Of a stretch of DNA of 50,700 bases, positions 15,098 through 33,634 are shown piece after piece. The stretch covers positions 1 through 50,700 of the forward strand of contig JASHOM010000071.1 of assembly GCA_030041115.1 (NCBI GenBank), given 5' to 3'. Origin of the DNA: Vulcanimicrobiota bacterium (GTDB taxonomy: Bacteria; Vulcanimicrobiota; Vulcanimicrobiia; Vulcanimicrobiales; Vulcanimicrobiaceae). Position 1 is the first letter of the stretch. Every line of letters starts with the position of its first letter. Below the pieces are notes generated by a model. That model was given only the letters and a program-made list of their open reading frames with translations. It was not told the DNA's origin and made no database searches. The translations under genes were made by a program, and so were the position numbers.

Positions 15098-15099
15098 GC

Positions 15100-17189: not shown

Positions 17190-18136
17190 AGCCGCAGGAG
17201 CTCCGTTACCATCGCCGTCACCGAAACCACGAAGGCGGCGCCGAGAAACTCCGAGATTCGGAAGAGCCTCAGCTTCGCATACGACGACTCCACGACGACC
17301 ACGGCGACCACGAGCGCTACGATCTTGAGCGACACGGCTGCCGCGGCGCCGACGATCGCCACGATGCTCCCAGTGCTCGCCAACCCCCACGGTGTCGTGA
17401 GCACGTTGAGAAAGATGATCGCGAGCACCGTGAACTTCATGTAGCCGCCGTACTTCACCAGCGCGGCGGAGCGGCCGGAGAGCTCCAACGCCTTCGATTC
17501 GTCGATCATCGCGAGTTCGAAGTGCCCGCTGGGATTGTCGACCGGGATGCGCCCGGTTTCCGCTAAGATGATCATGAAAAAGGCGATCAGCAGCAGGATG
17601 TGAGACGGCGCGAAAAAGTTGGCGATCGGATGAACCCAGTGCTGCTGCACGATATACGGGATCGTCGAGTTCGCGATGAAGGAAACGGTAAAGAGCACGA
17701 CGATGATGACCGGCTCGGCGAGAAAGCCGACCATGCGCGTGCGGCTGGCTCCCATCGCGCCGTACGGATTGCCGGCATCGATCGCCGCCAGCGTAAAGAA
17801 GAGCCCGGACACGGCGAAAATGAAGCCGGCGGCCAGCATGTCTCCGGCGAAGGCGAGAAAGAGCGGGAAATCGGTCAATACCGGAATCAGCAGCGTGATG
17901 ATCAACGGCACGATGAAAATCAGATAGGGCGCCGTGCGGAAAAGCCAACTGCTCTCGGCCGATATTCGTTCGTCCTTGCCGAACAGCTTGCGAAGGTCCC
18001 GATACGGCTGAAAGATGCTCGGACCGCGCTTCGATTGGACGATCTCTTTGAGGCGCGCCAAGATGCCCGCAAAAAGCGGTGAAAGCAGCAGCACGAACGC
18101 AAGCTGCGCTAAATTGAGAGCGATGGACTCGGCCAT
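17186..18136 (-). CDS. Ehr1: NuoH/HyfC-like membrane subunit
   Basis: ARLKEIVQSKRGPSIFQPYRDLRKLFGKD; ILAETGRIPVDNPSGHFELAMIDE. ATG 18136 chosen because the upstream in-frame sequence (MELASAQAG...) is the riboswitch. Confidence 0.87.
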   Translation of the reverse strand: MAESIALNLAQLAFVLLLSPLFAGILARLKEIVQSKRGPSIFQPYRDLRKLFGKDERISAESSWLFRTAPYLIFIVPLIITLLIPVLTDFPLFLAFAGDMLAAGFIFAVSGLFFTLAAIDAGNPYGAMGASRTRMVGFLAEPVIIVVLFTVSFIANSTIPYIVQQHWVHPIANFFAPSHILLLIAFFMIILAETGRIPVDNPSGHFELAMIDESKALELSGRSAALVKYGGYMKFTVLAIIFLNVLTTPWGLASTGSIVAIVGAAAAVSLKIVALVVAVVVVESSYAKLRLFRISEFLGAAFVVSVTAMVTELLRL

Positions 18137-18171
18137 TGTATCGAGAGAGTTTCTCCTAGCGAGCGCCGTCG

Positions 18172-18219
18172 ACCTAGGAGCCATCATCCCTGCCTGGGCG
18201 CTCGCGAGCTCCATCGCGT
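18172..18219 (-). promoter_or_regulatory. fluoride riboswitch (crcB motif), copy A, upstream of Ehr1 operon
   Basis: Minus strand CGCGATGGAGCTCGCGAGCGCCCAGGCAGGGATGATGGCTCCTAG: P1 CGCG/CGCG, pseudoknot GGAGC/GCTCC, P3 CCC/GGG followed by ATGATGGC. Confidence 0.82.
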
Positions 18220-18229
18220 GTGATCAGGT

Positions 18230-19003
18230 GTGAGTATACAGAATCCGCCGCTATGCGGGCAAGAAGGAATAGCCGCCCGTAGGGAAGGATTAGCGCCATC
18301 CGGTGTCAACGGTCCGAGCGTGCCGCACAACGTTGGGGACTTTGCGAAGACAATCGACGTGCTCACGCACGATCTTCCCGGATCCGCACGAAGCCTTCTG
18401 GCGCACGCTCCCGATTCGGCAAACGTAACCGCTGACGTAACGGCATGCCTTCTCGGTCGCGATCTTTGGTATCCGCAATTAGCGGCCTTTCGCGATTGGC
18501 TGCTCGAAAGCGGCGAGCGGCCGCACTTGTGGACTTTCGATTTTTGTCCGTCCGGCGCGTGGAACTCCGCGCCTTGGAATGCCCTGTCGCTGCCGGCGCG
18601 AATCTTGCGAGCGCGAGCCGGCGCGGTGGATCGCGAAGTGCAGGGGCACGTGTCGCCGGTGAGCCTCGCGATGAAGCGCCGCGAATTCGAAGCCGGGCTC
18701 GCCGAGCTGGAGCGAGCCGGAGGCTACGGCGCGGATGCGCGAAGGTTTGCAGCGGTCGCCGCGCACGCCGATTTGCGGACCGACCTCTCGTTGATCGAAA
18801 TTCTGTCGCACTGGCTGGCCATGCTGAAGCACCGCGAAAAAGTGCTTGCGGACCGGCACGCCACCGGCTTTGAAGTGCACGGGTATCGCGAGGCGTGCTC
18901 CGCGTGCAAGACGCGTTGGGGCATTCGGCCGTTCGAGCCTCGATGGGCTCCGCCGTTCCACCCGGGATGCCGTTGCTTCTCACAACCACGATTCACGAAC
19001 TAG
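18230..19003 (+). CDS. hypothetical protein with C-terminal CxxC...HPGCRC motif (start uncertain)
   Basis: 257-aa ORF ending YREACSACKTRWGIRPFEPRWAPPFHPGCRCFSQPRFTN, divergent from Ehr1. Confidence 0.6.
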   Translation: MSIQNPPLCGQEGIAARREGLAPSGVNGPSVPHNVGDFAKTIDVLTHDLPGSARSLLAHAPDSANVTADVTACLLGRDLWYPQLAAFRDWLLESGERPHLWTFDFCPSGAWNSAPWNALSLPARILRARAGAVDREVQGHVSPVSLAMKRREFEAGLAELERAGGYGADARRFAAVAAHADLRTDLSLIEILSHWLAMLKHREKVLADRHATGFEVHGYREACSACKTRWGIRPFEPRWAPPFHPGCRCFSQPRFTN

Positions 19004-19440
19004 GGAAGCGTCGTGAACCCGTCGATGAGAAGAACCGGACAGTGCGCGTACCGCGCGATCCGGTCGGAAACGCTGCCGATCAAGAACCTCGTCATGCCCG
19101 ACAACCCGCGCCTCCCTACGATGATCAAATCGGCCCCGACCTTTCGAGCGGTGTCGACGACCGCTTCCGCCGGATGTCCGCCCTCGACGACGACCAGCTC
19201 GCTTTGTATTCCGTTTTGCGCCGCGGACTCAAGCAGATCTCGAGCTGCCGCTTCGTAAAACTGGCGAGCGTCTCGACGCGAGCTGTGACGCTCGTCCTGC
19301 GTCTCGGCGTGCTCGGCGTGCCGGGCCACCGAGATTAGCTGTAGCCGTGCGCCAAAGCGCTTGGCGATCTCGGCTCCGTAACTGAACGCGCGCCGCGCGT
19401 GATCGGAGCCGTCCCAAGCCACGATGATATGAGAGAACAT
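19000..19440 (-). CDS. universal stress protein, UspA family
   Basis: MFSHIIVAWDGSDHARRAFSYGAEIAKRFGARLQLISV ... DLIIVGRRGLSGMTRFLIGSVSDRIARYAHCPVLLI. Confidence 0.93.
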   Translation of the reverse strand: MFSHIIVAWDGSDHARRAFSYGAEIAKRFGARLQLISVARHAEHAETQDERHSSRRDARQFYEAAARDLLESAAQNGIQSELVVVEGGHPAEAVVDTARKVGADLIIVGRRGLSGMTRFLIGSVSDRIARYAHCPVLLIDGFTTLP

Positions 19441-19446
19441 ATGTAC

Positions 19447-21366
19447 CTACCAATGTCGAATCGACGGGTAAAGAGCGAGTAACAGAATCGTGAATACCAA
19501 GATGTACGTGAGGTACGCGGCGATGACTCCGGATTGCGTCGCGCGGATGAGGTCCGAAATCCGCAGAATCGCCGCGAACATGCGCCGATAAAAGGGAAGA
19601 CCGATGCGCTCCTTGGCGTTGAGGATGACTTGCGTCGGATGAGCGTAGCCGGTTCCGCTGTACTGCGTCCACGCCCGATATCGCTCGCCCGACGTCCAGA
19701 CCGCCGCGCGGGCCGCCGGCGGACGAGCGAACAGCCGCGACAGCACCCAGAACAAGGCCGTGAATCCGGCAATGACTGCGGCCAAGCCGGGCGCGGATAT
19801 GGATGAGAAGCCGCTGAAGGCAGGTTGAACGAGCGGGACGGTTCCGACGATCGCCCGCATGACGCCGGTTCGGGCGATTGACGCGACGGCCGGCCCGAGG
19901 CGATCGAGGATCGGGCTCGAGAAAATTCCGGCTCCGACGATCGCCGACGATCCCGCCGCTAACGCCGTCAATCGCCATGGCGAACGGGTTTCGCGCGCTT
20001 GGGCGGCCTGCGGCGACCTCGGCGCGCCCAGCAATCCGGCGCCGAGCAGCTTCGTGACCGCGACGACGGCAACGCCGGCGGTGATACCGATGAGCGCACC
20101 GGCCACCGCAAAGATCACTTCGAAGGTAACGTTGCCGGTACGAAAGGCCTGCATGAACGACTCCAGCACAAGCCATTCCGCAACGAAGCCGGCCGTGGGC
20201 GGCAGCGCCGCGAGCGACATTGCACACAGCAGAACCGCAATCGTCGTCACCGGCATGACCCGCCCCAGACCTCCCAAACGATCGATCGACGCCGTCGAAC
20301 AGGCGCTCGATATCGAGCTGATCGCGAGAAAGAGCGTGGACTTGGCGAGCGCGTGGGCGAGAATCTGCGCGTATGCCGCCGCGATGCCCAGCCCAACGAG
20401 CACGTCCAAGTGCAGGATTTTTGCCGCTACCGCCACTCCCAGCGCCGCAAGGATGACGCCGCCGTTTTCGACGCTCGAATAGGCTGCCAATCGCCGCATG
20501 TCGCGTTGAATGACCGCCCACGAGATCCCGAGGAACGCCGAAAGCGCTCCGAGGACGATGGCGAGAACGGCGAACCATACCGGCGGATCCGGAAAGCCCA
20601 CGATGAATCGCACGACCCCATAGAAGCCGACGTTCAACGCACCTCCGGCCATGAGAGCCGCGACCAAAGAGGGCGCGGCGCGATAGCCGTACGGCATCCA
20701 GACCTGCAGCGGCAGCAAGCCGAACTTCGCGCCGAAGCCGATCAGCAAGAGCAGCAAGAGCACGCCGCGCACCGCGGCGTCGAGCGTCGCTCCGCTGGCG
20801 ACGACCGGACCGACGCCGAAGCCGTGTGCCGCATTTGCCAAGAAGAGCAGCGCGCCGATGAGGCACGCTCCGGCAACGTGAGTGATGCCGATCGTGAGAT
20901 ACGCAGCCGTGGCCGAATCGGAGTCGGTGCCGCAATATGCGATGGCCCAGAAAAAGACGAGCGCGAGAAGCTCCCACGCAAAGACGAAGAACAGCACGTC
21001 CCCGGCGCAGCAACACAACAGCGAAGCAAAGGCAATGGCGTTTGCCGTGGCGCTCGTCGTCCGGCCCGTGCCGCGTTCGTCCTTCGTCGCGGGACCTAGC
21101 CCGAAGATCGCGACGAGCGCCGCCACGACGCCGATGGTTCCGGCGAAAAAGGCCGCGGTGCCGTCGAAGTAGAGGACCGTATGAAGGTTCGCATCGCCGA
21201 ACGCAAGCGGAGTTGCGCCGAGCTGCCGAATGGACGCATCGCAGGTTGCTAGTGCTCCGAAGCCGAGAAAGACGAAGCCGGCGGTTCGTCCGGCGCGGCC
21301 GGGTAGAACGATGGCTGCCGCCGTTCCGACGAGATAGCACGCGAACGCAGCGATCAGGACGATCAC
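19447..21366 (-). CDS. Ehr2: NuoL/HyfB-like antiporter-type membrane subunit
   Basis: GTG 21366 (GTGA overlap); FVFAWELLALVFFW; GFGAKFGLLPLQVWMPYGYRAAPSLVAALMAG; HALAKSTLFLA. Confidence 0.83.
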   Translation of the reverse strand: MIVLIAAFACYLVGTAAAIVLPGRAGRTAGFVFLGFGALATCDASIRQLGATPLAFGDANLHTVLYFDGTAAFFAGTIGVVAALVAIFGLGPATKDERGTGRTTSATANAIAFASLLCCCAGDVLFFVFAWELLALVFFWAIAYCGTDSDSATAAYLTIGITHVAGACLIGALLFLANAAHGFGVGPVVASGATLDAAVRGVLLLLLLIGFGAKFGLLPLQVWMPYGYRAAPSLVAALMAGGALNVGFYGVVRFIVGFPDPPVWFAVLAIVLGALSAFLGISWAVIQRDMRRLAAYSSVENGGVILAALGVAVAAKILHLDVLVGLGIAAAYAQILAHALAKSTLFLAISSISSACSTASIDRLGGLGRVMPVTTIAVLLCAMSLAALPPTAGFVAEWLVLESFMQAFRTGNVTFEVIFAVAGALIGITAGVAVVAVTKLLGAGLLGAPRSPQAAQARETRSPWRLTALAAGSSAIVGAGIFSSPILDRLGPAVASIARTGVMRAIVGTVPLVQPAFSGFSSISAPGLAAVIAGFTALFWVLSRLFARPPAARAAVWTSGERYRAWTQYSGTGYAHPTQVILNAKERIGLPFYRRMFAAILRISDLIRATQSGVIAAYLTYILVFTILLLALYPSIRHW

Positions 21367-22103
21367 GAACGGCCTCTTGCCGCCGCATACCCGAGCGCGA
21401 CCCAAAGACCGTGTAGAATGGTCAGGGGCGACGGCGGCGTCCCGGGGATGAACACGTCGACGGGCAGCACGTCGCTGACCGGACCCAAAACGGCGATGCT
21501 GCGCGAAAAGATGCCGCCCGAACATGCCGACGTTCCCAGCGCAACGACCAGCTTGGGCTGCGGCATGGCCTCGTGGGCCGCAAGCAACGGCTGGGCCATC
21601 GCCCGGGTGACGACCCCGGTGACCACGAGCACGTCGGCATGGCGAGGCGTCGCGGTCAGGAAAATTCCCAACCGGTTTGCATCGTAGAACGGGTTGAAGA
21701 TTGCTTGAAGCTCCTGCTCCTCCGAGCCGTCACTGCCGGCGTCGACGTGACGAAGATGAACGGAGCGGCCCAACCCGCGCACTCGTTCGCGCAGCAGGGA
21801 TCGCACCTCGTCCGGGTTGCCCGCCACTTCGGCCAACTCGAACTCGTTTCGCATGCCGAACGCCTCGGGCGACCGGCGCGCGCACTCCCCGCATTGAAAG
21901 CAACGCTTGCGATCGACGCGCGCTCGCGCGCCGGCCGCGGTGAGCGCGCTCGACAGGCAGGCGCCGGCACCGAGAGCCTGCGCTTCGACGTTCGCCGGCA
22001 GGCTCTCGACCGCGCCGCGATAGGCGGGCGCCATCGAATCGGCCCGCAGCGGGTAACGCGTGCTGAGGATGCCGCGACGCAGACTATATCCGATCCAACT
22101 CAT
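21363..22103 (-). CDS. Ehr2: NuoB/HyfI-like small subunit lacking the four NuoB-type cluster cysteines
   Basis: MSWIGYSLRRG...CFQCGEC...HVDAGSDGSEEQEL...NRLGIFLTATPRHADVLVVTGVVTRAMAQPLL...ALGTSACSGGIF...VFIPGTPPSP. Confidence 0.83.
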   Translation of the reverse strand: MSWIGYSLRRGILSTRYPLRADSMAPAYRGAVESLPANVEAQALGAGACLSSALTAAGARARVDRKRCFQCGECARRSPEAFGMRNEFELAEVAGNPDEVRSLLRERVRGLGRSVHLRHVDAGSDGSEEQELQAIFNPFYDANRLGIFLTATPRHADVLVVTGVVTRAMAQPLLAAHEAMPQPKLVVALGTSACSGGIFSRSIAVLGPVSDVLPVDVFIPGTPPSPLTILHGLWVALGYAAARGRS

Positions 22104-23464
22104 CGGTCGACCTCGGACTGGCTGGCGGCAAACGAGTGCTCGATGAAGGAAAAGTCGGTAAAGATATTTCCCGGTAACGACGGGACGAAGAGCGGCCAGT
22201 TCGCGTACGACGGCGGTCGAATCGCTACCCGCATCAGGCGGCCGCCCTCGATTCGAACGAAGTAGATGAGCTCGCCCTGGGGAGCCTCCACTCGCGCGAA
22301 TCCGCAGCCGTCGCGCGGCGCGGCCTTCGCGAGCCAATCGCCCGGCGGATTGGCGCTGAGCGCATTTCGAATCAGCTGAAACGAGCGCTGAATTTCGGCC
22401 GCCCGTACGAGTGCTCGCGCGGCGGCGTCGCCGTTGCTTTCCAGCACCTCTTCGCCGGTCAGCGGCGTGTAGAAGTAATCGTCCCCGGTGCGAGCGTCGC
22501 ACGAAACGCCGCTGCCGCGCGCGACCGGACCCACCGCGCCGAAGCGAACGACCTGCTCGTAGGTGAGCTTGCCGGCTCCAATCAAACGATCGAGCAAGGA
22601 CTGCGTCGAAACGAGAGTTTGCACGACGCTGCGCGCATGTCGTTCGACCTCTTCCAATTCCCGGTCGCATGCTTCGCGCAGCGACGCGAGCACGTCGAAG
22701 CGAGTGCCGCCGACGCAGCAAACGCCGCGGCCGAAACGATGCCCCGTCCCGGCGGCGAGCAGACGATGCACCCGTTCCTTCGCGGCAAACGTTTGCGCCG
22801 AGCCGACCGACAGCGAACCGTCGTCGGCAAGCTTTCCTAACGAGTCGAGATGCTGCGCTACGCGTTCGAGCTCGACGAGCACCGAGCGGGCGGCGCGGGC
22901 GCGCTCGGGCACGTGCACGTCGGCCACCGTTTCGACCGCCCGGCAAAACGCGGCGGCGTGACTGGAGGCGGTCGCCCCGGAAACGTGCTCGGCGACGAAC
23001 GGCGCCAGTTCGAGCTCGACGCCCACGAAACGTTCCTCCAACCCACGATGCTTGAAGAACATCGACGGCGCCACTTCGACGAAGGTCTCGCCCGCCGTGT
23101 CGATCGTCCAACGCGCCGACTCGACGATCCCGGAGCGGATCGGCCCGTACAACACGGTCGAGATTTCCGGCGACTCCCGCTTTCGCAGTTCGTCCGGCGG
23201 CTCGACGCGGACCAGCGGCCGGTCGTCGCTCAGGTTTTCGAACTCGAGTCCGAAACGGTCGCGTATCTCCCGCTCGTACCACTCCGCCGCGGGCGTCACC
23301 GGAGTCAACGATTGTACGCTGCCGGCCGCATCGCTGCCGACGTCAACGAGCGAAGCACCGTTGGCGAAAACGTAGTGCAGTCGCGTCTGCCGACCGATCC
23401 GGTCGGCGAATATCCAGGCTAATCGCTCGCCTCCGGCAACGCGGCTGCGCGCTTGCGCGCTCAT
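22100..23464 (-). CDS. Ehr2: NuoCD/HyfG-like large subunit without [NiFe] ligands
   Basis: ATG 23464; AEWYEREIRDRFGLEFENLSDDRPL (NuoC-like); L1 position EHVSGATASSHAAAFCRAVE; C-terminus DFSFIEHSFAASQSEVDR with no CxxC. Confidence 0.83.
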   Translation of the reverse strand: MSAQARSRVAGGERLAWIFADRIGRQTRLHYVFANGASLVDVGSDAAGSVQSLTPVTPAAEWYEREIRDRFGLEFENLSDDRPLVRVEPPDELRKRESPEISTVLYGPIRSGIVESARWTIDTAGETFVEVAPSMFFKHRGLEERFVGVELELAPFVAEHVSGATASSHAAAFCRAVETVADVHVPERARAARSVLVELERVAQHLDSLGKLADDGSLSVGSAQTFAAKERVHRLLAAGTGHRFGRGVCCVGGTRFDVLASLREACDRELEEVERHARSVVQTLVSTQSLLDRLIGAGKLTYEQVVRFGAVGPVARGSGVSCDARTGDDYFYTPLTGEEVLESNGDAAARALVRAAEIQRSFQLIRNALSANPPGDWLAKAAPRDGCGFARVEAPQGELIYFVRIEGGRLMRVAIRPPSYANWPLFVPSLPGNIFTDFSFIEHSFAASQSEVDR

Positions 23465-24906
23465 TGCCGCCCCGCAAAGATAGCCGCCGCGTTCGTCAGG
23501 AGAACCCGCAAGGGCGGCGGCACGAACAATCCGAGGCCGAGCACGACGGCAAATGCCAGAAACATCGAAGCGATCGCTCCGACGTCGCGCTCGCCGCACG
23601 GCATGTCCGCGGGCGGCGACCCGACGGTTACTCGCGTCGTCCAGCGCATCAGACCCGCAAATGCCGTAACGAGCAATCCCAGGACGACCGCCGCCACGAC
23701 CCATCTGCCGCTGTCGAAGCCGCCGGAGAGCACCATGAGTTCGCTGCGGAACAATCCGAAAGGCGGAAGTCCCGCGAGGGCGAGCCCCGCAAAGGCGAAG
23801 AGCGTTCCCGACGCCGGAAGCACCGCAACGCCCCCGCTGATCTTCGAGATCTCGCGCGTGTCGAAGCGCGCGGCGAGGCGCCCGGCTCCGAAGAACGCCA
23901 GCGCTTTGGTCGCGGCGTGATTGATCACGTGGAGCAATGCGCCGGTCACGGCGAGCCGGGCACCGAAGGCGAGGCCGCAGGCAATGAGCCCCATGTGCTC
24001 GATGCTCGAATAGGCGAGCATTCGTTTCAGATCGCGCTGCTGCAGCAGGAAGAACGCGCCGACGAAAAGCGAGAGCAGGCCGACGACGAAGAACAAGTGG
24101 AGCGTCAATCCGCTGCCGGCCGCGGCGTTCGCGATGGCGGCAAAACGAACGATGACGTACAAAGCATCGGATAGCAGCACGCCGGAGAGCATGGCGCTGG
24201 TGGGCGTCGGCCCGGCACCGTGGGCATCGGGAAGCCAGGTGTGCATGGGCGCCAAGCCGGCCTTGGTTCCGAAGCCGATGAGCGCCAGCATGAAGGCGAG
24301 CCGCACGGCGTCCTGATTCAGTTTGCCGGCAACGCTCATGTACGCGGTCCAGCTCGGCGCGTAGTGTGCCGGGAGGACCCCGGTTCCGGCCGCATACATC
24401 ACCACGACTCCGAGCAAGCCGATCGCCAACCCGCACGAAGCGATCAAGATGTACTTCCAGGCCGCTTCGAGCGCATTTTCGGTGCCCTGAAGCCGGACGA
24501 GAAGTGCGGCCACGATCGTGGTGACTTCGAGCGCGACCCACATGCCGGCCAGATTCGTCAGCAGCGGAACGACCGTTTCGGCGCATGCGAAGGCGTTCGT
24601 GAGCGCGAGAAATTCGCGACGGTACGCCTCGTCTCCGTCGACCCCTATCGCCTCGACGCGCACGTACCACGTGCCGTAGAGCCCGACGGTGCCGTAGACG
24701 ATCGCAACCGGCAGCAGAAAAACGGCCGAAAGCGCGTCGAGAGGCCCCGCACCCGCGGCGGTGCGCACGACGGCCGCCAGTATGCAACCGGCGGTGACGA
24801 GACCGCCGGCGGCCGTGCAGACGCGTCCTATGCGCGAGGGAACGAGCAGCGTCACGAACGCGAGCACGAGAGGAACGGCGATCGCCGTTGCGATGATTGC
24901 GTTCAT
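23461..24906 (-). CDS. Ehr2: NuoN/HyfF-like antiporter-type membrane subunit
   Basis: GFGTKAGLAPMHTWLPDAHGAGPTPTSAMLSGVLLSDALYVIVRF; YSSIEHMGLIACGLAFG. Confidence 0.87.
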   Translation of the reverse strand: MNAIIATAIAVPLVLAFVTLLVPSRIGRVCTAAGGLVTAGCILAAVVRTAAGAGPLDALSAVFLLPVAIVYGTVGLYGTWYVRVEAIGVDGDEAYRREFLALTNAFACAETVVPLLTNLAGMWVALEVTTIVAALLVRLQGTENALEAAWKYILIASCGLAIGLLGVVVMYAAGTGVLPAHYAPSWTAYMSVAGKLNQDAVRLAFMLALIGFGTKAGLAPMHTWLPDAHGAGPTPTSAMLSGVLLSDALYVIVRFAAIANAAAGSGLTLHLFFVVGLLSLFVGAFFLLQQRDLKRMLAYSSIEHMGLIACGLAFGARLAVTGALLHVINHAATKALAFFGAGRLAARFDTREISKISGGVAVLPASGTLFAFAGLALAGLPPFGLFRSELMVLSGGFDSGRWVVAAVVLGLLVTAFAGLMRWTTRVTVGSPPADMPCGERDVGAIASMFLAFAVVLGLGLFVPPPLRVLLTNAAAIFAGRQ

Positions 24907-25574
24907 CCGCGCAACCGTTGGAAGACGGCGATGCCGGCGGCGTCATGCCGCTCGACCAGCGCCCGCACGAGCACGCCGAAGACCACGACGGCAACGAGCG
25001 CGTCCAAGAGCAGCAACACGCCGATGATGAACGGCAGGCCCGGAGCCAAAGTAACGGTCCCGAAGAACAGTCCGTCCTCGAGCGTGAGGAAGGCGATGAC
25101 TTGGGCCAGCGCGTTGGGCCGCAAGATGGCGACGAGGAAGCCGACGAAGACCATCGACAGCGCCGTTGCCAAGTCGGCCTGCGGCAAAAATGCCCCTTGA
25201 TGAAGCGGAAGCTGAATCGAGGTCAGTACGGCCAGGCCGATGAGCGCGCCGGCGAGCAAAAGCGACGCGAGCACGTTGATTCGAGCGGGAAGCTCGACGC
25301 GCGACGATATGTTGCGAACCAGTCCTTGCATGTAACGCGGCAACAGCGTCCCCTTGAAAACGATGGTGAGAACGGCCAAGAGCAAGAGATCCCAGGCCCA
25401 TCCCTCCGTCACGCCCACTCCAAAGCAGATGGCGGCTACGAGCCACGCTTGAATCGCATACACGCGAATGAACTCGGCGATGACCATCGATCGAAAAAGC
25501 GAAAGCTGCACGAGCAGCAAGAGCATCGCTATGGTTCCGGCAAAGGCTTCCGGAACGGTCAGCTGGTGCAGCAT
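24903..25574 (-). CDS. Ehr2: HyfE-like membrane subunit
   Basis: Hydrophobic 223 aa; FLTLEDGLFFGTV near the conserved LEN position; ATGA overlaps on both sides. Confidence 0.78.
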   Translation of the reverse strand: MLHQLTVPEAFAGTIAMLLLLVQLSLFRSMVIAEFIRVYAIQAWLVAAICFGVGVTEGWAWDLLLLAVLTIVFKGTLLPRYMQGLVRNISSRVELPARINVLASLLLAGALIGLAVLTSIQLPLHQGAFLPQADLATALSMVFVGFLVAILRPNALAQVIAFLTLEDGLFFGTVTLAPGLPFIIGVLLLLDALVAVVVFGVLVRALVERHDAAGIAVFQRLRG

Positions 25575-26533
25575 CAGCCGACGCCCACGACATAGGCGAA
25601 GATGGCTATCAGCGCCACGAGAAGCCCGGTCCCGATGAATTCGGTGATCTTGTAAAGCCGCAGCTTGGCGAAGGTCGTCTCGATGGCGGCGACCACGACG
25701 CCCAGGGCCAGCATCTTCGCAAAAAGACTAACGATCGCGAATGCCACCGATGCCACGCTGCCGCTCGACGAAAGGCCCATCGGCAGCAGCAACACGTTGA
25801 GGAAGACGGTGTAAAGCAAGAACTGCTTCATCGAGCCGCCCCATTTGTAGAGCGCCATCCAGGGGCCCGAATGCTCGAAGAGCCGCGCGTCGTCGATCAT
25901 TCCGAACTCGATCGTCGCGGACGAGCTCTCGATCGGAATCCGTCCGGTGTCGACCAGCAGCATCATGAAAAAGGCGGCGGCGGCCAGAACGTGCGCGGGG
26001 CGCAGTACGTCGGCGGCGGAATGTCGCAACGCGGCGTTCAGTGCGTACGGCAGGTCGGTGCCGGTAATGAAAGCAACCGAAAAGAAGACGAAAATGAGCG
26101 TCGGCTCGACCAAGACGCCGACCATGACCGCGCGACTGCTGCCGATGTGTGCGTACTGCGAGCCGGAATCCAACGCCGCGAGCGCCGTCGCAAAGCCGGC
26201 GAGCGCCAGAACGAACGCGCCGCCGAGAATATCCCCGTAGGTCGCGCCCGGAAGCGGATACGTCGTAAGAACCGGAATGAGCGTTGCAACCGTCGCGTAG
26301 CAGCCGCACGCGACGAACGGCGCCGCTCGAAAAATCCAAGACGACGGTTCCGGAATGATCGCCTGCTTCCGAAAGAGCTTGAGGATGTCCCGGTACACCT
26401 GAAATATCGACGGCCCGTAACGCCCCTGAATTATCGCTTCGAGCCGAGCGATGCAGCCGGTAAGCAACGGCGAAAGCAGCAGCAGGCACAAAACCTGCGC
26501 GGCTTGGACCAAAATCGGACTTAGGGTTGCCAC
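25574..26533 (-). CDS. Ehr2: NuoH/HyfC-like membrane subunit
   Basis: GTG 26533; ARLEAIIQGRYGPSIFQVYRDILKLFRKQ; LLVDTGRIPIESSSATIEFGMIDD. Confidence 0.87.
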   Translation of the reverse strand: MATLSPILVQAAQVLCLLLLSPLLTGCIARLEAIIQGRYGPSIFQVYRDILKLFRKQAIIPEPSSWIFRAAPFVACGCYATVATLIPVLTTYPLPGATYGDILGGAFVLALAGFATALAALDSGSQYAHIGSSRAVMVGVLVEPTLIFVFFSVAFITGTDLPYALNAALRHSAADVLRPAHVLAAAAFFMMLLVDTGRIPIESSSATIEFGMIDDARLFEHSGPWMALYKWGGSMKQFLLYTVFLNVLLLPMGLSSSGSVASVAFAIVSLFAKMLALGVVVAAIETTFAKLRLYKITEFIGTGLLVALIAIFAYVVGVG

Positions 26534-26562
26534 GGCGATCTACTCGACGTTGGACAATCTGT

Positions 26563-26606
26563 CTTCACGAATGCTCCGACAAAAGCGGTTGCTTTGTCAG
26601 GAGCCA
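26563..26606 (-). promoter_or_regulatory. putative expression-platform hairpin of copy C
   Basis: Minus strand GCTCC-TGACAAAGC-AACC-GCTTTTGTC-GGAGC; its 5' arm is the aptamer pseudoknot strand. Confidence 0.6.
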
Positions 26607-26663
26607 TTGGCCTTTGCAGCAGTTTGCGCTGCCGAAAGCAGCTCCGGCGGACTCCTCCGCCGC
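26597..26663 (-). promoter_or_regulatory. divergent fluoride riboswitch (crcB motif), copy C, upstream of Ehr2 operon
   Basis: Minus strand GGCGGAGGAGTCCGCC ... AAAGGCCAATGGCTCCTG: P1 GGCGG/CCGCC, AGGAG/CTCCT pseudoknot; extra internal hairpin GCTGC-TTTCG-GCAGC; P3 not canonical. Confidence 0.6.
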
Positions 26664-26706
26664 TATTGCCTTTCGAGTGCTTTGCGAGCGATACCTTTGC
26701 AATCCG

Positions 26707-27009
26707 TCAACGTTTCGATCGCCGCGACCTCATTCCAAATCCAAGCATCAAGGACGCCATCGCCAACGCAAGCGGAACTTCTGCGATCAGGATAAAGCGC
26801 AGCAGCATCGCGTCGTGGCGTAAGGCTGCGCCGAATGCGATCCCGAGCAACATGAGGCCAAACGTGGAAATCGCTCGAACGGTAAGACGTCCGGCCGCGC
26901 GACCTCCGTCGAGATGCTTGCAGTCGGGTGCGTCGCACAGCTCCCAGCTATCGGGGCTTCGCAAATGCGGGCGCGGCGGCGTGACGCCGTGCAATGAGTC
27001 CTGCTTCAT
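26707..27009 (-). CDS. small membrane protein (~2 TM) preceded by fluoride riboswitch copy D
   Basis: SD GGAGGAATC-ATG; AISTFGLMLLGIAFGAAL and LLRFILIAEVPLALAMASLMLGFGMRSRR hydrophobic segments; not CrcB-like by eye. Confidence 0.7.
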   Translation of the reverse strand: MKQDSLHGVTPPRPHLRSPDSWELCDAPDCKHLDGGRAAGRLTVRAISTFGLMLLGIAFGAALRHDAMLLRFILIAEVPLALAMASLMLGFGMRSRRSKR

Positions 27010-27020
27010 GATTCCTCCAC

Positions 27021-27073
27021 GCAGGAGCCATCAGCCGCAGCCTGCGACCAATCACGGCGAGCCCCATCGCCCG
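27021..27073 (-). promoter_or_regulatory. fluoride riboswitch (crcB motif), copy D
   Basis: Minus strand GGGCGATGGGGCTCGCCGTGATTGGTCGCAGGCTGCGGCTGATGGCTCCTGCG: P1 GGCG/CGCC, pseudoknot GGGGC/GCTCC, P3 GTCGC/GCGGC. Confidence 0.87.
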
Positions 27074-27169
27074 ATCGGTCGCACTTCGCACAAGGTTGAG
27101 CGGGTCCTCTACGTAACGCCGCTTCGACGAACAGGTTTGCGCGATATCGACGCAAATATAAAGGACCGT

Positions 27170-27222
27170 ACGGCGATGGAGCTCGCCCGCGAGCGTCGCA
27201 AACCGGCGACTAACGGCTCCTG
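27170..27222 (+). promoter_or_regulatory. fluoride riboswitch (crcB motif), copy E, upstream of MutS-like pair
   Basis: CGGCGATGGAGCTCGCCCGCGAGCGTCGCAAACCGGCGACTAACGGCTCCTGG: P1 GGCG/CGCC, P3 GTCGC/GCGAC, pseudoknot GGAGC/GCTCC. Confidence 0.85.
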
Positions 27223-27241
27223 GATTACGGGGACACCATCG

Positions 27242-28771
27242 ATGACTTTCCACAGCATCCTTTACGACCGATCGGCTCCTGCGGTCGCCGACATGGGCGC
27301 GACGCCCGAGTGCATTCGCGACCTCAACATCGATCAGATCATCGATGCGATCGTGCGGGGAAGGGAGGAGTACGATCTCGCGCCCTTCTTTCTGATGCCG
27401 CTGGCCACGATGGAAGCCGTCGGCTACCGGCACGAAGTCATGCGCGATCTCCAAGAAGGCGCCGTGCTCGAGTGCGTCGCCGAGTTCGCCGATGCGATGC
27501 GATCGACGCGGAAGATCCTCGCGCACTCCGCCAAGCTCCGAACTCACCAACAGACGCGCTTGTTTCTCGATGCCGTGCGTGCGTACGACGCGGCCGTCGT
27601 TCGTTTGTGCGAGAAACTCGAGCGCTCCAGCGCCAAATCGGCGGGGCTTCGCGCTTTCTGTGCGTTCCTCGCCGCGTACGTGCAGTCCGAGCAATTTCGG
27701 GCTCGAACTTCGGCTTCCGGCGCGCTGCTCCGGGAGCTCGATGCGATTCGCTATTCCGTTCGCATCAAGGAAAACACCGTCACGGTGGGGCGCTACGAGG
27801 ACCGTCCCGACTATAGCGACGAGGTCGCGCGGACGTTCGAGAAATTCAATCAAGGGGAAGTGCGCGACTACCTCGTCGCCGGCCGCGATTCCATCGAGAT
27901 GAATCACGTCGAGGAACGCATCCTCGCGCTGGTGGCGCGGCTGTTTCCGGCGACGTTTGCGAAATTGACGGAATTCGAAGAGCATCATCGCAGTTTCGTC
28001 GACGCGACCGTGACGCGGTTCGACCGCGAGATACAATTCTACCTCGCGTACCTCGAATACATGAACGAATTTGCGGCCTCGGGCTTGTCGTTTTGTTATC
28101 CGCACGTCTCGACCGACGGCGGCGACAGCGCCGTTCGGGACACCTTCGATGCGGCTCTCGCCAAGAGGCTGCGCGACGCCGGGCGTGAGGTCGTGGTCAA
28201 CGACTTCGCACTGACCGGCGGGGAACGCGTCCTCATCGTATCGGGGCCGAACCAAGGGGGCAAGAGCACCTTCGCTCGCACGTTCGGTCAGGTGCACCAT
28301 TTTGCAAGCATCGGTTGCCCGGTCGCAGGCAGCGCGGCGCGGATCGCCCTGTTCGACCGGATCTTCACGCATTTCGAGCGGGAGGAGCGGGTCGAAAGCC
28401 TTCGCAGCAAGCTGGAGGACGATCTGCTCCGGATGCGCGACATTTTGCGCGACGCAAGCGAACGCAGCATCGTCATCTTGAATGAAATCTTTGCATCGAC
28501 GACGCGCAGCGACGCCTATTGGCTCGGACGGCAGATGCTGGCCAAGATCTTGAGGATCGGAGCGCGTTGCGTCTGCGTTACGTTCCTCAACGAGCTGGCG
28601 CACGGAGACGATCGGATCGTCAACATGGTGAGCACGGTGGTTGCGGACAACCCCGCTGTGCGAACGTTCAAGGTGGTCCGGCGCGCCGCGGGCGAACCTT
28701 CGTATGCCGCCACGCTCGCGGAAAAGCACCGGCTGACGCACGATTTGGTAAAAGCTAGAATACGATCATGA
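27242..28771 (+). CDS. MutS-like ATPase (MutS domain V type), first of pair
   Basis: ATG 27242 (MTFHSILYD); Walker A GPNQGGKSTFARTFGQ, Walker B SIVILNEIFASTTRSD. Confidence 0.88.
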   Translation: MTFHSILYDRSAPAVADMGATPECIRDLNIDQIIDAIVRGREEYDLAPFFLMPLATMEAVGYRHEVMRDLQEGAVLECVAEFADAMRSTRKILAHSAKLRTHQQTRLFLDAVRAYDAAVVRLCEKLERSSAKSAGLRAFCAFLAAYVQSEQFRARTSASGALLRELDAIRYSVRIKENTVTVGRYEDRPDYSDEVARTFEKFNQGEVRDYLVAGRDSIEMNHVEERILALVARLFPATFAKLTEFEEHHRSFVDATVTRFDREIQFYLAYLEYMNEFAASGLSFCYPHVSTDGGDSAVRDTFDAALAKRLRDAGREVVVNDFALTGGERVLIVSGPNQGGKSTFARTFGQVHHFASIGCPVAGSAARIALFDRIFTHFEREERVESLRSKLEDDLLRMRDILRDASERSIVILNEIFASTTRSDAYWLGRQMLAKILRIGARCVCVTFLNELAHGDDRIVNMVSTVVADNPAVRTFKVVRRAAGEPSYAATLAEKHRLTHDLVKARIRS

Positions 28772-30294
28772 CGCTCAAGGCGCACCTGATGTACGCCGAC
28801 CGCGATTTTTCATTTCGCAGCGTCGTGCCGATCACCGAGGGCGAGGTCGCTGCGGATCTCGAGCGAGATGCGCTCGTCTCGGCGATGGCCGCCGGCGATC
28901 CCGTCGTTGCGGAAGTCGCGACCGAGGCGCTCTGGAACGGCCTGACCGATTTGGCCGCGATCCGGTACCGTCAAGCTGCGCTCGGCGACGCCGTCGCGAA
29001 TTCCGCCGCGGTTCGAGAGCTGTACGAACTTGCCGTCGAGGCGCTCGAAGCCGAACGCCGCGCGTTTCTGCTCGGGCTCGTCGGGCGAACGCCGGGCTCG
29101 GTACTCTTCCGGGCGGTGGAGCTGCTCGAATTATTGGAGGAGCGGCTGCGCCGGCTACGGGCCTTCGCCGACAAAAATGCGGCCCGGTTCGGGTCGGTTG
29201 CCTTCACCAATTTGTTCGACATGCTCCGGCGCGAGCTCGGCGACGATTACCTGGGAATCGTTCGAGAGCACTTGGGAGACTTGCGATTTACCGACGGCGT
29301 GTTGTCGAGCGCGCGCTTGGGTCCCGGCAACAAGGGAGTGGACTACGAGCTTCACCGCATCGTCCAGTCGGAGGGCTGGCTTCGCCGCGCGTTTGGGGCC
29401 CGCGGGCAGCAGGCGTATTCGTTTAGGATTCCGGATCAGGACGAGGGCGGCGCGCGCGCGCTGGCAGCCCTCAAGGATCGAGGAATAGCGCGCGTCGCCG
29501 ACGCGCTCGCGCGCTCGATGGATCACATCCTGTCGTTCTTCAAGATGCTCAGGACGGAGCTCGCCTTCTACGTCGGATGCCTCAACATCCGCGAAGCGCT
29601 CGCCGCGGCGGGCGCACCGGCCTGCACGCCTACGCCGTGCTCCGCGGCCGACGCAAAGCGCAACGCCACCGGACTCTACGATCCGTCGCTGGCGCTGACC
29701 CTGGGACGCTCCGTCGTGCGAAACGATCTCGCGGCCGACGGTAAGGCGCTCGTGCTCGTCACCGGAGCAAATCGCGGCGGGAAATCGACGTTTTTGCGCA
29801 GCCTCGGGCTTGCCCAGCTAATGATGCAGTGCGGAATGTTCGTCGCGGCCGAACGCTTCGAGGCCAGCGTCTGCCGGGGAGTCTTCACGCACTACAAACG
29901 TCAGGAAGACCCGACGATGCAAAGCGGTAAATTCGACGAAGAGCTCGTTCGAATGAGCGCGATCGTCGATGCCGTGGTGCCGGGTTCGCTCGTGCTCCTC
30001 AACGAGTCCTTCGCCGCGACCGACGAACGCGAAGGCGCGGAGATCGCTCATCAGGTCGTCACCGGGCTGATCGATTGCGGCGTCATCGCGTGCTTCGTAA
30101 CGCATCAGTACGAACTAGCCGAACGCTTCATGACCGAGGGCCGCACGGACGTCCTCTTCCTGTTGGCCGAGCGGCGAGACGACGGATCGCGCACGTTCCG
30201 AATCAAACCCGGACGCCCGCTGGAGACGAGCTACGGCAAAGACATTTACGATCGCATCTTCGACGACGCCGGCGCGACGACGGTCCCGCCCTGA
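28768..30294 (+). CDS. MutS-like ATPase, second of pair
   Basis: ATGA overlap with the first; Walker A GANRGGKSTFLRSLGLAQLMMQCGMFV, Walker B GSLVLLNESFAATDEREGAEI, CFVTHQYELA. Confidence 0.88.
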   Translation: MTLKAHLMYADRDFSFRSVVPITEGEVAADLERDALVSAMAAGDPVVAEVATEALWNGLTDLAAIRYRQAALGDAVANSAAVRELYELAVEALEAERRAFLLGLVGRTPGSVLFRAVELLELLEERLRRLRAFADKNAARFGSVAFTNLFDMLRRELGDDYLGIVREHLGDLRFTDGVLSSARLGPGNKGVDYELHRIVQSEGWLRRAFGARGQQAYSFRIPDQDEGGARALAALKDRGIARVADALARSMDHILSFFKMLRTELAFYVGCLNIREALAAAGAPACTPTPCSAADAKRNATGLYDPSLALTLGRSVVRNDLAADGKALVLVTGANRGGKSTFLRSLGLAQLMMQCGMFVAAERFEASVCRGVFTHYKRQEDPTMQSGKFDEELVRMSAIVDAVVPGSLVLLNESFAATDEREGAEIAHQVVTGLIDCGVIACFVTHQYELAERFMTEGRTDVLFLLAERRDDGSRTFRIKPGRPLETSYGKDIYDRIFDDAGATTVPP

Positions 30295-30908
30295 CTTCGT
30301 CCGATCGCAGCGGCCCGGCGTACCGCGATCGAGGTCCGCGCAAGACTGACCGCGCCGCGACCGATCAAGCTGCGCATCGCGCGCTCGACGTGCTCCACCA
30401 GCGCCGAGCGCAAGCGCTGCTCGAGCTCGGCGATCCATCCGTCGATCTCCGCAAAGGAGCAGGCCGCGTCCGGAAGGATCTCCCGCTCGTCGTCCACCTC
30501 TATCCGCGGCAACGCAATTCTTCGCGGCGGGCGGGGCGGCTTCGCGAGATCGCCGGCTCCTTGCGCGGCGGCTCGGACGAAGCGCTCCTGCGCTGCGAGC
30601 AAGGCTTCCGCATAGAATCCAAAGCGCGCCCGGAACCGCACGCCGGCATTTTCGAACGCCATCTGAGCGCAACGCATGGCCACCAGCTCCGAATGGCTGC
30701 GGGTCAGAGCCGCGCTCAAGTCCGGAGCGAGCGTGCCCAGCGAGAGGAAATGGTCCGCGAGCTCTTCGCGCGCCCGCCGCACGGGCTTCGCAACGAAACG
30801 ATCGAGCGTCGAAAGATCGGTTCGACAGCCGGACTCGAGCACCACGCGCGCCGCGGCTTCATCGTCGCGAAGGATCTGCCAGGCGGCGTTGACACGGTCA
30901 GCCGTCAT
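30246..30908 (-). CDS. helical hypothetical protein, second gene under riboswitch copy B
   Basis: 220 aa; ATG 30908 overlaps the upstream gene end by 11 nt; convergent with MutS-like 2 (49-nt overlap). Confidence 0.65.
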   Translation of the reverse strand: MTADRVNAAWQILRDDEAAARVVLESGCRTDLSTLDRFVAKPVRRAREELADHFLSLGTLAPDLSAALTRSHSELVAMRCAQMAFENAGVRFRARFGFYAEALLAAQERFVRAAAQGAGDLAKPPRPPRRIALPRIEVDDEREILPDAACSFAEIDGWIAELEQRLRSALVEHVERAMRSLIGRGAVSLARTSIAVRRAAAIGRSQGGTVVAPASSKMRS

Positions 30909-31230
30909 CGAGAACGATCGCCGCGTCGTCGAAGAACAGGTCCTCTACGGTTTCGTGCTGACGCAAGCGAGTTTTGAGCTCGGCAATTCGCGCTTGCAGC
31001 TCCTTGGCCCGGCCCAAAATGACCTCGCGGCCGGCAAAGGCGCCCGCGTTGCGCATGCGCTCCGTTTTGAGCTTGCGCATCGATTCCTGGAGCTCGAAAT
31101 GCTCGCTGGCATAATGGCGCTCGATTTCGTAAAGCCTGCCGCTGCGCTCTTGGAGTTTCTCGTTCGCCCACTGCAGCCGAGCCTCGAGATCTCGGCAACG
31201 CTCCTGCAGTTCGGCGACTTGATCGGCCAC
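30898..31230 (-). CDS. coiled-coil protein, first gene under riboswitch copy B
   Basis: GTG 31230; MADQVAELQERCRDLEARLQWANEKLQERSGRLYEIERHYASEHFELQESMRKLK heptad-rich. Confidence 0.65.
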   Translation of the reverse strand: MADQVAELQERCRDLEARLQWANEKLQERSGRLYEIERHYASEHFELQESMRKLKTERMRNAGAFAGREVILGRAKELQARIAELKTRLRQHETVEDLFFDDAAIVLDDG

Positions 31231-31248
31231 GACCTAACCTCACTCTCG

Positions 31249-31299
31249 TTGAGGAGCCATCAGCCTTTTTGGCGCTTGTTCGGCGAGCTCCATCGCCCT
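31249..31299 (-). promoter_or_regulatory. fluoride riboswitch (crcB motif), copy B, upstream of coiled-coil pair
   Basis: Minus strand AGGGCGATGGAGCTCGCCGAACAAGCGCCAAAAAGGCTGATGGCTCCTCAA: P1 GGCG/CGCC, P3 GCC-AAAAA-GGC, pseudoknot GGAGC/GCTCC; very close to the canonical aptamer. Confidence 0.9.
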
Positions 31300-31361
31300 C
31301 GGAAACGTTGCTTCGCGGAGGAATAGAGAACGATCCTGCGAATTTCGTTCGTGTTAGTTTA

Positions 31362-31446
31362 CGGGCGATGGAGCGCCGCCTTCGACCGCCGCGTCAGAAG
31401 CGTCGTCCCCGACGGGACGATGCGGCGATGCGGCTAATGGCTCCTT
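31362..31446 (+). promoter_or_regulatory. fluoride riboswitch (crcB motif) with extended P3, copy F, upstream of NUDIX-dynamin operon
   Basis: CGGGCGATGGAGCGCCGCC ... CGCCGC[GTCAG...CCCGACGGGACGAT]GCGGCGATGCGGCTAATGGCTCCT: P1, long P3, GGAGC/GCTCC pseudoknot. Confidence 0.78.
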
Positions 31447-31475
31447 TCTCGAGATGCGATCTTGGGAGGAACCTT

Positions 31476-31937
31476 TTGAATCAATACGTGGTTCGGATCA
31501 GCGCGGCGATTCTACGCCCCGGTGACGAGGTATTGGTGGTTCGACAGTTGGATCGCGGTCTCGAACGCATCAACCTCCCGGGCGGGATGGCGCATTTCAA
31601 CGAGTCGCTGAAGGAGGCACTCGTGCGCGAAGTTCGCGAGGAGACCGGCTTCGAGGTCGTTCCGACCGAGATCGCATTCGTTGCGGAGGGGTACAACGAC
31701 CGGTGGCCCGATCCCACTTTGGAAATCTGTTTCTACGCGACGGCCGTACGGCAGATCGAGCCGCCCGACCGGATGGGCGAGCAAATTCTTTCCGTCGAAT
31801 GGGTCGCGTTGGACGACCCGCGGCTTCTGCGCTCCGCCCCGCAGGCCGAGAATTTTCGAATTAGCAAGCGCGGTCTTTACGTCGACCAAACGAGCGCGAC
31901 CGCGCGCAAGATCAAGAAACGCTCCAAGCAATCATGA
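31476..31937 (+). CDS. NUDIX hydrolase
   Basis: TTG start with SD GGGAGGA; GGMAHFNESLKEALVREVREETGFEV matches the Nudix box pattern GX5EX7REUXEEXGU. Confidence 0.92.
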   Translation: MNQYVVRISAAILRPGDEVLVVRQLDRGLERINLPGGMAHFNESLKEALVREVREETGFEVVPTEIAFVAEGYNDRWPDPTLEICFYATAVRQIEPPDRMGEQILSVEWVALDDPRLLRSAPQAENFRISKRGLYVDQTSATARKIKKRSKQS

Positions 31938-33634
31938 TCGAATCCGCCCTCGAGCGAATCCAAGCCCTCGCCGAGTGGGTCGGTGACGCGACCGCCGCGG
32001 GACTCGCTCGCGAACTTTCCGAACAAATACCTCGCGGCGAGCTGAACCTGCTCGTGCTCGGGCAATTCAAGCGCGGGAAGAGCTCGCTGGTCAACGCGTT
32101 GCTCGGCGACGACGTCATGCCGACCGGAGCCTTGCCGCTCACCGGCGTCACGACGACCATACGATACGGCGACGAAGGGCGGATCGAAGTTTCGCTCGGA
32201 AGCTCGCCGCAAAAACGGCTGATCGCCGTGGACGAGTTGCCGAACTACGTCACCGAAAAATGCAATCCCGCGAACCGGCTCGGCGTCGAGCGCGTGGAGA
32301 TTCTTTGGCCTTCGGAAAGGATTCGCGGCTTCGCGCTCTTCGACACGCCGGGCATCGGTTCGACATACGCTCACAATACCGCCGCCGCTCACGCCGCCTT
32401 GCCCCGCGCCGACGTGGCCGTGCTGGTCGTCGGCCCGGAGCCCCCGATCGGAGCGGAGGAGCTGCAATACGCGCGCGACGTGATCTCTTCGTCCGAACGG
32501 CTTTTCGTCGTGCTCAACAAGAGCGACATTGCAGGCGAGGCTTTGCCCGAGATCCTGAGCTTCACGCGAGATGCCCTGCGCAACGTGCTTGGACCGGACA
32601 ACGAGGTCGACGTCGTGCCGCTCAGCGTGACTCGAGCCCGCGAAGCCCAGCGCGACGGACGCCGAGACTCGGCTTTCGAATCGTTCGTCGAGTCGCTGCG
32701 CCGGCTTGCGGATCACCAAGGCGATGCGGTGCGCGAGCAGTCAACTCGGCGGCGCGCGGTCGCAATCGTCGAGCGGCTCGATGCGCTCGCGGCAATGCGA
32801 GTGGCCGCACTGGAACTTCCGCGCGAGGAACGAGAACGGCGCAAAGCGATGATGGAAGGCGCTTTGCAGCTCATTGCCGACCGTGCCCGCGCGCTCGAGC
32901 TGGTCGTCGACGATGACGTGAATCGCCTAAGCCAAGAGATGGAGGCGGAGTTCGGACGGTGGTACGACCGCGATGTGCCGCTTCTTCGCGCGATGGCGGC
33001 GGAGCTGTCCGAAGAGTCGTCGTCCGAACGCCGCACGGAGCGCTTGGAGAGCGCGATCGCCGCGCGAGCGTCGGCTTGGCGTCAAGCCGCCGTCGAAGAT
33101 GCGACCGCTCAACTGAACGCGCACGCGGCCAAGTACGGACGTCTTCTCGGCGAGATCGAAACGTCGGCGCTCCAGACCGGATGCGAAATATTACGCATCG
33201 ATGCCGGCTCCCTCATCGCCCGCAACATCGAGTTTTCGCCTGCGAAGCTCGATCTGGCCACATCGGTCATGCCGACGACCGGCTTGGAGATCGTCGTCAC
33301 CGCGGCACTTCAAGCGCTGCCGGGGCCGCTTCGCAAGCCGTTGCTCAAACGGCGCTACGACGACGTGCTGGCACGCGAGCTCGACGCTCTGCGCGGAAGG
33401 TTGCGCTATGGCGTCGCACGCGATCTCGAGCCGTGGCGAAAATCGGTGCGCGCCAAGATCGTCTCGTCGATCGAGTCGATCCGTCACGCGATCCTTGCCG
33501 GGTTCACCAGCGCCGGCGAACCGTCCGACCCCGAAGCGCCCGAGCTCGAACGAGCGAGAGGGCTTCGGCGGGAGCTCCACGATTTACGCTCGACGTTGGC
33601 GACACGCGAGGAGACGAACGCGCTGGCTCCGTAG
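31934..33634 (+). CDS. dynamin-like GTPase
   Basis: ATGA overlap with nudix gene; P-loop GQFKRGKSSLVNALLG, switch TGVTTT, G3 DTPGIGS, G4 NKSD. Confidence 0.9.
   Translation: MIESALERIQALAEWVGDATAAGLARELSEQIPRGELNLLVLGQFKRGKSSLVNALLGDDVMPTGALPLTGVTTTIRYGDEGRIEVSLGSSPQKRLIAVDELPNYVTEKCNPANRLGVERVEILWPSERIRGFALFDTPGIGSTYAHNTAAAHAALPRADVAVLVVGPEPPIGAEELQYARDVISSSERLFVVLNKSDIAGEALPEILSFTRDALRNVLGPDNEVDVVPLSVTRAREAQRDGRRDSAFESFVESLRRLADHQGDAVREQSTRRRAVAIVERLDALAAMRVAALELPREERERRKAMMEGALQLIADRARALELVVDDDVNRLSQEMEAEFGRWYDRDVPLLRAMAAELSEESSSERRTERLESAIAARASAWRQAAVEDATAQLNAHAAKYGRLLGEIETSALQTGCEILRIDAGSLIARNIEFSPAKLDLATSVMPTTGLEIVVTAALQALPGPLRKPLLKRRYDDVLARELDALRGRLRYGVARDLEPWRKSVRAKIVSSIESIRHAILAGFTSAGEPSDPEAPELERARGLRRELHDLRSTLATREETNALAP

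Follow-up and report, generated by a model that had tools for sequence, protein, structure and literature searches.

We describe here a 50,700-nucleotide stretch of DNA from a Vulcanimicrobiota bacterium (GenBank assembly GCA_030041115.1, contig JASHOM010000071.1, positions 1 to 50,700 of the forward strand; hereafter, the window), in which six conserved fluoride riboswitch aptamers, designated elements A to F, lie within 13.3 kb, each of them just 5′ of an operon. We consider it highly probable that this region is a fluoride-response island, in which the six leaders would bind fluoride and turn on about 20 genes between them (six under element A, seven under C, one under D, and two each under E, B and F), whose products would serve in the response to fluoride. 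An original prediction, made from the DNA letters alone, had proposed such an island with these elements at the heads of its operons, and it is supported here in that, in the covariance-model check that it had called for, all six elements match the Rfam fluoride riboswitch family, element C is rescued by comparison with relatives, and the island is kept in related genomes. The assembly is referred to as G000 in our analysis and is 95% complete, and the phylum, which is largely uncultured, is named Candidatus Eremiobacterota in what follows.

In the mechanism that we propose, in the absence of fluoride the CUCCU at the 3′ end of each aptamer would fold onto the nearby downstream Shine−Dalgarno (SD) sequence and translation would be blocked, while binding of fluoride and Mg2+ would lock CUCCU in a pseudoknot, paired with the GGAG(C/U) in the loop of P1, leaving the ribosome site free and allowing the operon to be expressed. 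Two complex-I-like, energy-converting-hydrogenase-related (Ehr) complexes would then transport ions and bring pH and membrane potential back to normal, and a MutS-like ATPase pair, a NUDIX hydrolase, a dynamin-like GTPase and a universal stress protein would replace or reactivate phosphoryl-transfer enzymes and repair fluoride-hit membranes.

Six Fluoride Aptamers within 13.3 kb

The whole Rfam library was scanned (cmscan) against positions 17000 to 33000 of the window, and the fluoride riboswitch family RF01734 (gathering score 34 bits) matched at six of six sites, with any other Rfam family at an E-value of 1.5 or worse. The elements lie on the strands originally claimed for them, and their aptamer cores, the limits of which were set by inspection, are each at most 4 nt from the earlier limits. 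Their positions and RF01734 scores are as follows:

18168–18227, minus strand: element A, fluoride riboswitch of the CGCGAUGGAGCUCGCG form, C37 to A; core 18176–18218; 26.2 bits, E 0.0011; heads the A-type Ehr operon
26591–26670, minus strand: element C, G6-C38 sub-type with an extra P2-like hairpin; core 26599–26661; 20.5 bits, E 0.078; heads the C-type Ehr operon
27015–27080, minus strand: element D, fluoride riboswitch; core 27023–27071; 32.2 bits, E 1.2e-5
27163–27229, plus strand: element E, fluoride riboswitch, U41 to C; core 27172–27221; 22.9 bits, E 0.013
31244–31306, minus strand: element B, canonical fluoride riboswitch; core 31252–31297; 39.4 bits, E 5e-8
31355–31453, plus strand: element F, fluoride riboswitch with a long P3 insert; core 31364–31445; 28.6 bits, E 1.8e-4

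When the bacterium's own genome was searched with RF01734 only, five of these six elements reached E-values of at most 5e-4 and element C a value of 0.003, and a seventh fluoride riboswitch was found on a separate contig (G000:C132:1183–1248, plus strand, 34.7 bits). Six of the seven copies in this 2.6 Mb genome thus fall inside 13.3 kb; were copies placed uniformly, the probability of this would be about 1e-10, so that the clustering is not due to chance. The seventh copy (L046:1183–1248) precedes an ABC transporter consisting of an SBP_bac_11 binding protein, a permease and an ATPase, which is an unusual partner.

Aptamer Structure and Covariation

Pairing was assessed in an alignment of 56 aptamers, numbered as in T. 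petrophila; the pattern used to pick them required A40 and U48 and allowed A or G at position 6 and C or T at position 38 in any combination. The pairs of P1 and of the pseudoknot are kept in 100% of the sequences, although two of the four P1 pairs and two of the five pseudoknot pairs have changed on both sides, and 84% of the P3 cells are paired. Over the alignment as a whole, 95.8% of the cells are paired, giving a score of 0.300 compared to 0.148 in shuffles. The linchpin A40-U48 is found in 56 of 56 aptamers, including the six window copies, its bases being fixed by the picking pattern, such that this provides no independent evidence of conservation. Positions 6 and 38 hold A-U in 31 aptamers, G-C in 24 and another combination in one; A6/U38 is present in elements A, B, D, E and F, and G6/C38 in element C. 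The pseudoknots, P1 stems and linchpin pairs are all intact in the window elements. One detail of the original prediction has to be corrected, in that the GGGGC of element D, taken to be a compensatory change, forms a G-U wobble with CUCC instead.

Element C and the G6·C38 Sub-type

A reversed Watson−Crick pair allows the exchange of A-U for G-C and vice versa, as at the Levitt pair of tRNA. In the canonical fluoride aptamer, A6·U38 forms a long-range reversed Watson−Crick pair and Mg2+ is held by backbone oxygens (PMC11586693), so that no particular base is needed for Mg2+. Element C scores 59.2 bits with a model of the G6·C38 sub-type (R1), where we note that C is itself among the eight sequences from which R1 was built. 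That element C could be a false positive or a different RNA is ruled out by the G6-C38 variant elements that stand 5′ of the same gene, hyfC, in relatives (L036, L038 and L040).

Besides element C, the phylum has seven loci with the sub-type, and genomes elsewhere contain it in at least 115 stretches, a count that shows its spread and not covariation, since the pattern demanded both G6 and C38. The first genes after the sub-type in other genomes (n = 94) include 25 Na+/H+ exchangers, 10 CrcB, seven CLC, seven HyfC-like proteins, three dynamins, two DUF190 proteins, one enolase and one universal stress protein (Usp). As these are known fluoride genes, fluoride very probably stays the ligand of the sub-type. 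A change from C11·G43 to U11·A43 is also common to its members, which may therefore stem from one ancestral change, and those from Eremiobacterota carry an extra hairpin between P1 and P3.

It could be argued that some of these riboswitches, above all element C, retain the crcB fold and have changed ligand, whether to another anion or to a pH-dependent state, given that the long-range pair affected adjoins the ligand pocket, that the change is a fixed feature of the sub-type, and that C has the lowest Rfam score. We consider this distinctly unlikely, as the bases at positions 6 and 38 go together (A with U and G with C) in 55 of the 56 aptamers, as expected of an unchanged reversed Watson−Crick pair, the genes that follow the sub-type belong to the known fluoride regulon, and base identity is not needed where Mg2+ is bound by the backbone. 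No description of the G6·C38 sub-type was found in the literature searched, which is not proof of its being undescribed. In it, both bases of a tertiary pair have been exchanged by nature in an ion riboswitch that is well studied, and a direct comparison with the A6·U38 form is possible.

Potential Pairing of the Aptamer 3′ Strand with the Shine−Dalgarno Sequence

Of 33 island elements, 31 have four or more bases of CUCCU that pair with sequence further downstream, compared to 16.9 expected from dinucleotide shuffles, with a mean energy z of −2.2, and the pairing partner is mostly AGGAG or GGGAG immediately 5′ of the start codon. In element A, CUCCUAG...CUAGGAG provides a perfect 7-nt complement to the SD, and the anti-SD pairing of element C is strong (z −3.2). 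None of the six window elements has a T-run of at least five within 60 nt, and there is therefore no intrinsic terminator, which rules out a transcription terminator as the expression platform in the window. Four sister elements that were checked do have T-runs, and may terminate transcription as well; exchange of the pseudoknot strand into a downstream hairpin is the mechanism of transcriptional members of the family (PMC13273304). For the window, the pairing potential points to translation, implying an ON switch in which the pseudoknot and the SD would compete for CUCCU.

Conservation within and beyond the Phylum

A search of 149 genomes of the phylum gave at least one match in 77 and at least three copies in 16, all of the latter in the family of the window and with mostly clustered copies. 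Up to eight copies lie on a single contig (G029, within 16 kb), G103, G022 and G025 have six each, within 18, 16 and 26 kb, respectively, and the cargo in these relatives overlaps, comprising the MutS-like ATPase pair, dynamin, NUDIX, coiled-coil proteins, universal stress protein and Ehr complexes. When coordinate lists were compared by eye, all 14 of 14 MutS1 orthologs (E ≤ 1e-105) were on contigs carrying fluoride riboswitches; of the 13 C-type hyfG genes, 12 had a riboswitch at the head of the operon, a few kb upstream of the gene, and the 13th lay on a different contig from its genome's match. Other Ehr-like complexes in the phylum have no riboswitch match nearby, and thus the association is with particular Ehr types.

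Gene order is partly conserved within the genus, and this would fit a situation in which the riboswitches are real and their clustering is a by-product of gene-order conservation around the Ehr operons, with no functional unit behind it. However, between genera both order and orientation vary, while the same genes stay grouped and the switches are kept at operon heads, and the core genes recur with riboswitches well outside the phylum, which makes a mere by-product highly improbable.

This recurrence was seen in 40 outside genomes, a biased set in that all were picked through the G6·C38 pattern, with 1 to 13 copies per genome: 13 riboswitches within 37 kb in Hephaestia caeni DSM 25527, 12 in a Binataceae metagenome-assembled genome (MAG) and 11 in a Bryobacteraceae MAG. 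MutS1/MutS2 genes are present in the island regions of Hephaestia, Binataceae, Spirochaetales and Castellaniella, Ehr genes in those of Hephaestia, Binataceae, a Deltaproteobacteria MAG and Spirochaetales, and dynamin, DUF190, CrcB and Usp in several. Together with riboswitches, varying combinations of the MutS pair, dynamin, DUF190, Ehr and Usp are found again in Alphaproteobacteria, Binataceae and Spirochaetales, which suggests a common kit for surviving fluoride across several bacterial phyla. The usual account of fluoride resistance involves one exporter gene and a few inhibited enzymes; to this would be added a kit that spans several operons, most of them headed by a switch, and through its recurrence across phyla poorly understood genes gain a testable role. 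We also note that Hephaestia caeni DSM 25527 (L202–L203) has P1 stems of several sequences and, as a named isolate, is suited to experiments.

Missing Exporters and Low Scores

The following observations weigh against a fluoride-response island. Five of the six window copies (D, F, A, E and C) fall below the Rfam gathering score, which is passed only by element B and the genome's seventh copy, and element C taken alone is marginal. The signal for pairing with the SD is uneven across the window, with moderate energy and fewer than four CUCCU pairs in element F, and energies no better than those of shuffles in A, B, D and E. Finally, CrcB (PF02537) and CLC (PF00654), normally part of the fluoride regulon, have no match in the assembly, where a copy elsewhere in the genome could be missing from the sequence assembled. 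CrcB adjoins dynamin in two congeners, G007 and G017 (L044:18416–18757 and L043:10635–10979), whereas in the window dynamin is followed by a 72-nt gap (33634–33707) and then glgB, with no CrcB there.

Were the elements decayed remnants or constitutive leaders, in an island that is being lost from a genome that has also lost CrcB, one would expect just such an absence of exporters, together with scores such as those of the window copies (20–39 bits, vs about 45–59 bits for the best copies in sister genomes). We nevertheless regard decay as very unlikely: beyond the intact pairs of the aptamers noted above, all open reading frames 3′ of the elements are open and their Walker A, P-loop and NUDIX motifs are intact, and the deficit in score probably comes in part from the G6-C38 change and inserted hairpins, and not from broken pairs.

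Relation to Known Fluoride Systems

The crcB motif was first reported in 2010, 5′ of mutS, ion-transport and formate-hydrogenlyase (FHL)-like genes (PMC2864571), which bears out the mutS and FHL associations named in the original prediction. The window elements resemble RF01734 as reported there in P1, P3, the pseudoknot, the A40-U48 linchpin, their position in 5′ leaders, and the mutS, ion-transport and FHL-like genes downstream, and differ from it in the G6-C38 of element C, in there being six copies in 13 kb, and in a pseudoknot strand able to pair with the SD. The leaders stand before genes of the fluoride regulon, namely MutS and FHL-like genes in the window and the known fluoride genes CrcB, DUF190 and CPA2-type antiporters in related islands.

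Clustered fluoride-induced genes under RF01734, including a universal stress protein, are also found in the fluoride-resistance genomic island GI3 of Enterobacter cloacae FRM, for which, however, one riboswitch and an operon of ppaC, eno, gpmA and crcB are reported (PMC5533749), compared to six switches in the window, where the genes are those for Ehr, MutS-like, dynamin and NUDIX proteins and an exporter was not found. Streptomyces cattleya and Methylobacterium DM4 likewise show extensive fluoride-riboswitch regulation in one genome, but make or degrade fluorinated compounds (PMC11139923), and no genes for the synthesis or degradation of such compounds were recognised among the window proteins scanned. 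The number and density of the copies had also been called unusual, and although the island is indeed dense, many-switch genomes and fluoride islands are known (PMC11139923, PMC5533749) and genomes with more copies exist. The links to mutS and formate hydrogenlyase (2010), fluoride islands and many-switch genomes are therefore already known; new, as far as the literature searched shows, are the dense multi-switch island of Eremiobacterota, a core of genes that recurs across phyla, the description of the G6·C38 sub-type, and an Ehr complex without the N2 cysteines.

Two Ehr Complexes under Elements A and C

The two largest operons of the island, assigned with Pfam and with limits that, as for all operons here, were read from gene spacing, are both on the minus strand:

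10714–18136, minus strand: A-type Ehr operon, under element A
17186–18136, minus strand: hyfC-like (NADHdh)
16521–17189, minus strand: hyfE-like
15100–16533, minus strand: hyfF-like (antiporter)
13538–15103, minus strand: hyfG-like (49/30 kDa)
12846–13541, minus strand: hyfI-like (NuoB-like, with a ferredoxin-like motif)
10714–12849, minus strand: hyfB-like (antiporter)
19000–26533, minus strand: C-type Ehr operon, under element C, a divergent second set of the same six genes plus a universal stress protein
25574–26533, minus strand: hyfC
24903–25574, minus strand: hyfE
23461–24906, minus strand: hyfF
22100–23464, minus strand: hyfG
21363–22103, minus strand: hyfI
19447–21366, minus strand: hyfB
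19000–19440, minus strand: universal stress protein

Ehr complexes comprise complex-I/group-4-hydrogenase subunits and Mrp-like antiporters, and have no NiFe ligands (PMC6349859). This hallmark, a hydrogenase-like core without NiFe ligands together with Mrp-like antiporter subunits, is present in both window complexes: there are no CxxC Ni ligands in either window HyfG nor in six orthologs, and therefore neither complex is a hydrogenase, which rules out a true [NiFe] hydrogenase or formate hydrogenlyase. The antiporter-type subunits align across the conserved core, and C-type HyfF keeps the Glu of transmembrane helix 5 and the Lys of transmembrane helix 7, as read from the alignment. The A-type HyfI keeps its N2 cysteines (CGSC, GAC, PGCPP), as would be expected for redox coupling, whereas the C-type HyfI of all five aligned genera has lost them (GSDGSEE, PGTPP and the like), and a motif check in two more genera likewise found neither the CxxC pair nor PGCPP. 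Alignment with solved FHL and Mbh subunits gave the same N2 replacements in the C-type. Thus, the window complexes share their subunit set and lack of NiFe ligands with known Ehr complexes (PMC6349859), while the C-type differs from these in that the N2 [4Fe-4S] cysteines are also gone and in its predicted control by a fluoride riboswitch.

Fluoride entry lowers pH and the proton-motive force (PMC11139923), and among riboswitch-linked genes Na+/H+ antiporters are second in frequency only to exporters, for which reasons the Ehr complexes most likely have an ion or pH role. More specifically, the C-type could be a complex-I-like membrane machine without electron transfer through the N2 site, acting as a dedicated fluoride-stress ion transporter that moves H+/Na+ or F− and replaces FluC/CLC, apparently missing from this genome, a proposal that we put forward as rather doubtful. 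If true, however, a fluoride-controlled relative of complex I without N2 cysteines would be a rare test case for redox-uncoupled ion transport.

Other Genes of the Island

The remaining genes under the riboswitches, and one conserved neighbor, are as follows:

26707–27009, minus strand: small predicted membrane protein of 100 aa, under element D
27242–28771 and 28768–30294, plus strand: MutS-like ATPase pair, under element E; domain V only (Pfam), Walker A intact in both
30898–31230, minus strand: cc1, coiled coil, under element B; conserved island protein without family
30246–30908, minus strand: cc2, partner of cc1, under element B; conserved island protein without family
31476–31937, plus strand: NUDIX hydrolase, under element F; Pfam, NUDIX box intact
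31934–33634, plus strand: dynamin-like GTPase, under element F; Pfam, P-loop intact
18230–19003, plus strand: conserved island protein with an invariant C..C...PFHPGCRC motif, divergent from operon A and lacking its own riboswitch here

In the MutS-like pair, Pfam matches MutS_V alone and NCBIfam MutS reaches 82 bits against a cut-off of 480; a mismatch-repair identity is rejected, with the mismatch-recognition domain I not found and the full-length score not reached. The KamC reactivase ATPase (NF052383) of the MutS family is likewise a MutS domain V ATPase of about 500 aa, and the second of the island proteins has a KamC score about equal to its MutS or MutS2 score, all being under the cut-offs. 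Judging by these findings, the pair may act in enzyme reactivation instead of repair; a literature search on KamB/KamC returned nothing relevant. The 100-aa membrane protein has no family, and no homolog of it was found in other islands.

The protein at 18230–19003 has no Pfam or NCBIfam match. Its homologs are found at L036, L043, L044, L045, L212–L214 and L218, and in G029 (L036:17066–18109) the homologous domain forms the C-terminal half of a DUF190 fusion. Carbohydrate genes flank the island on both sides (6103–10699 and 33707–42385), encoding a GH63-like protein, a glycogen debranching enzyme, GlgB, MalQ and a nucleotidyltransferase−phosphomannomutase fusion.

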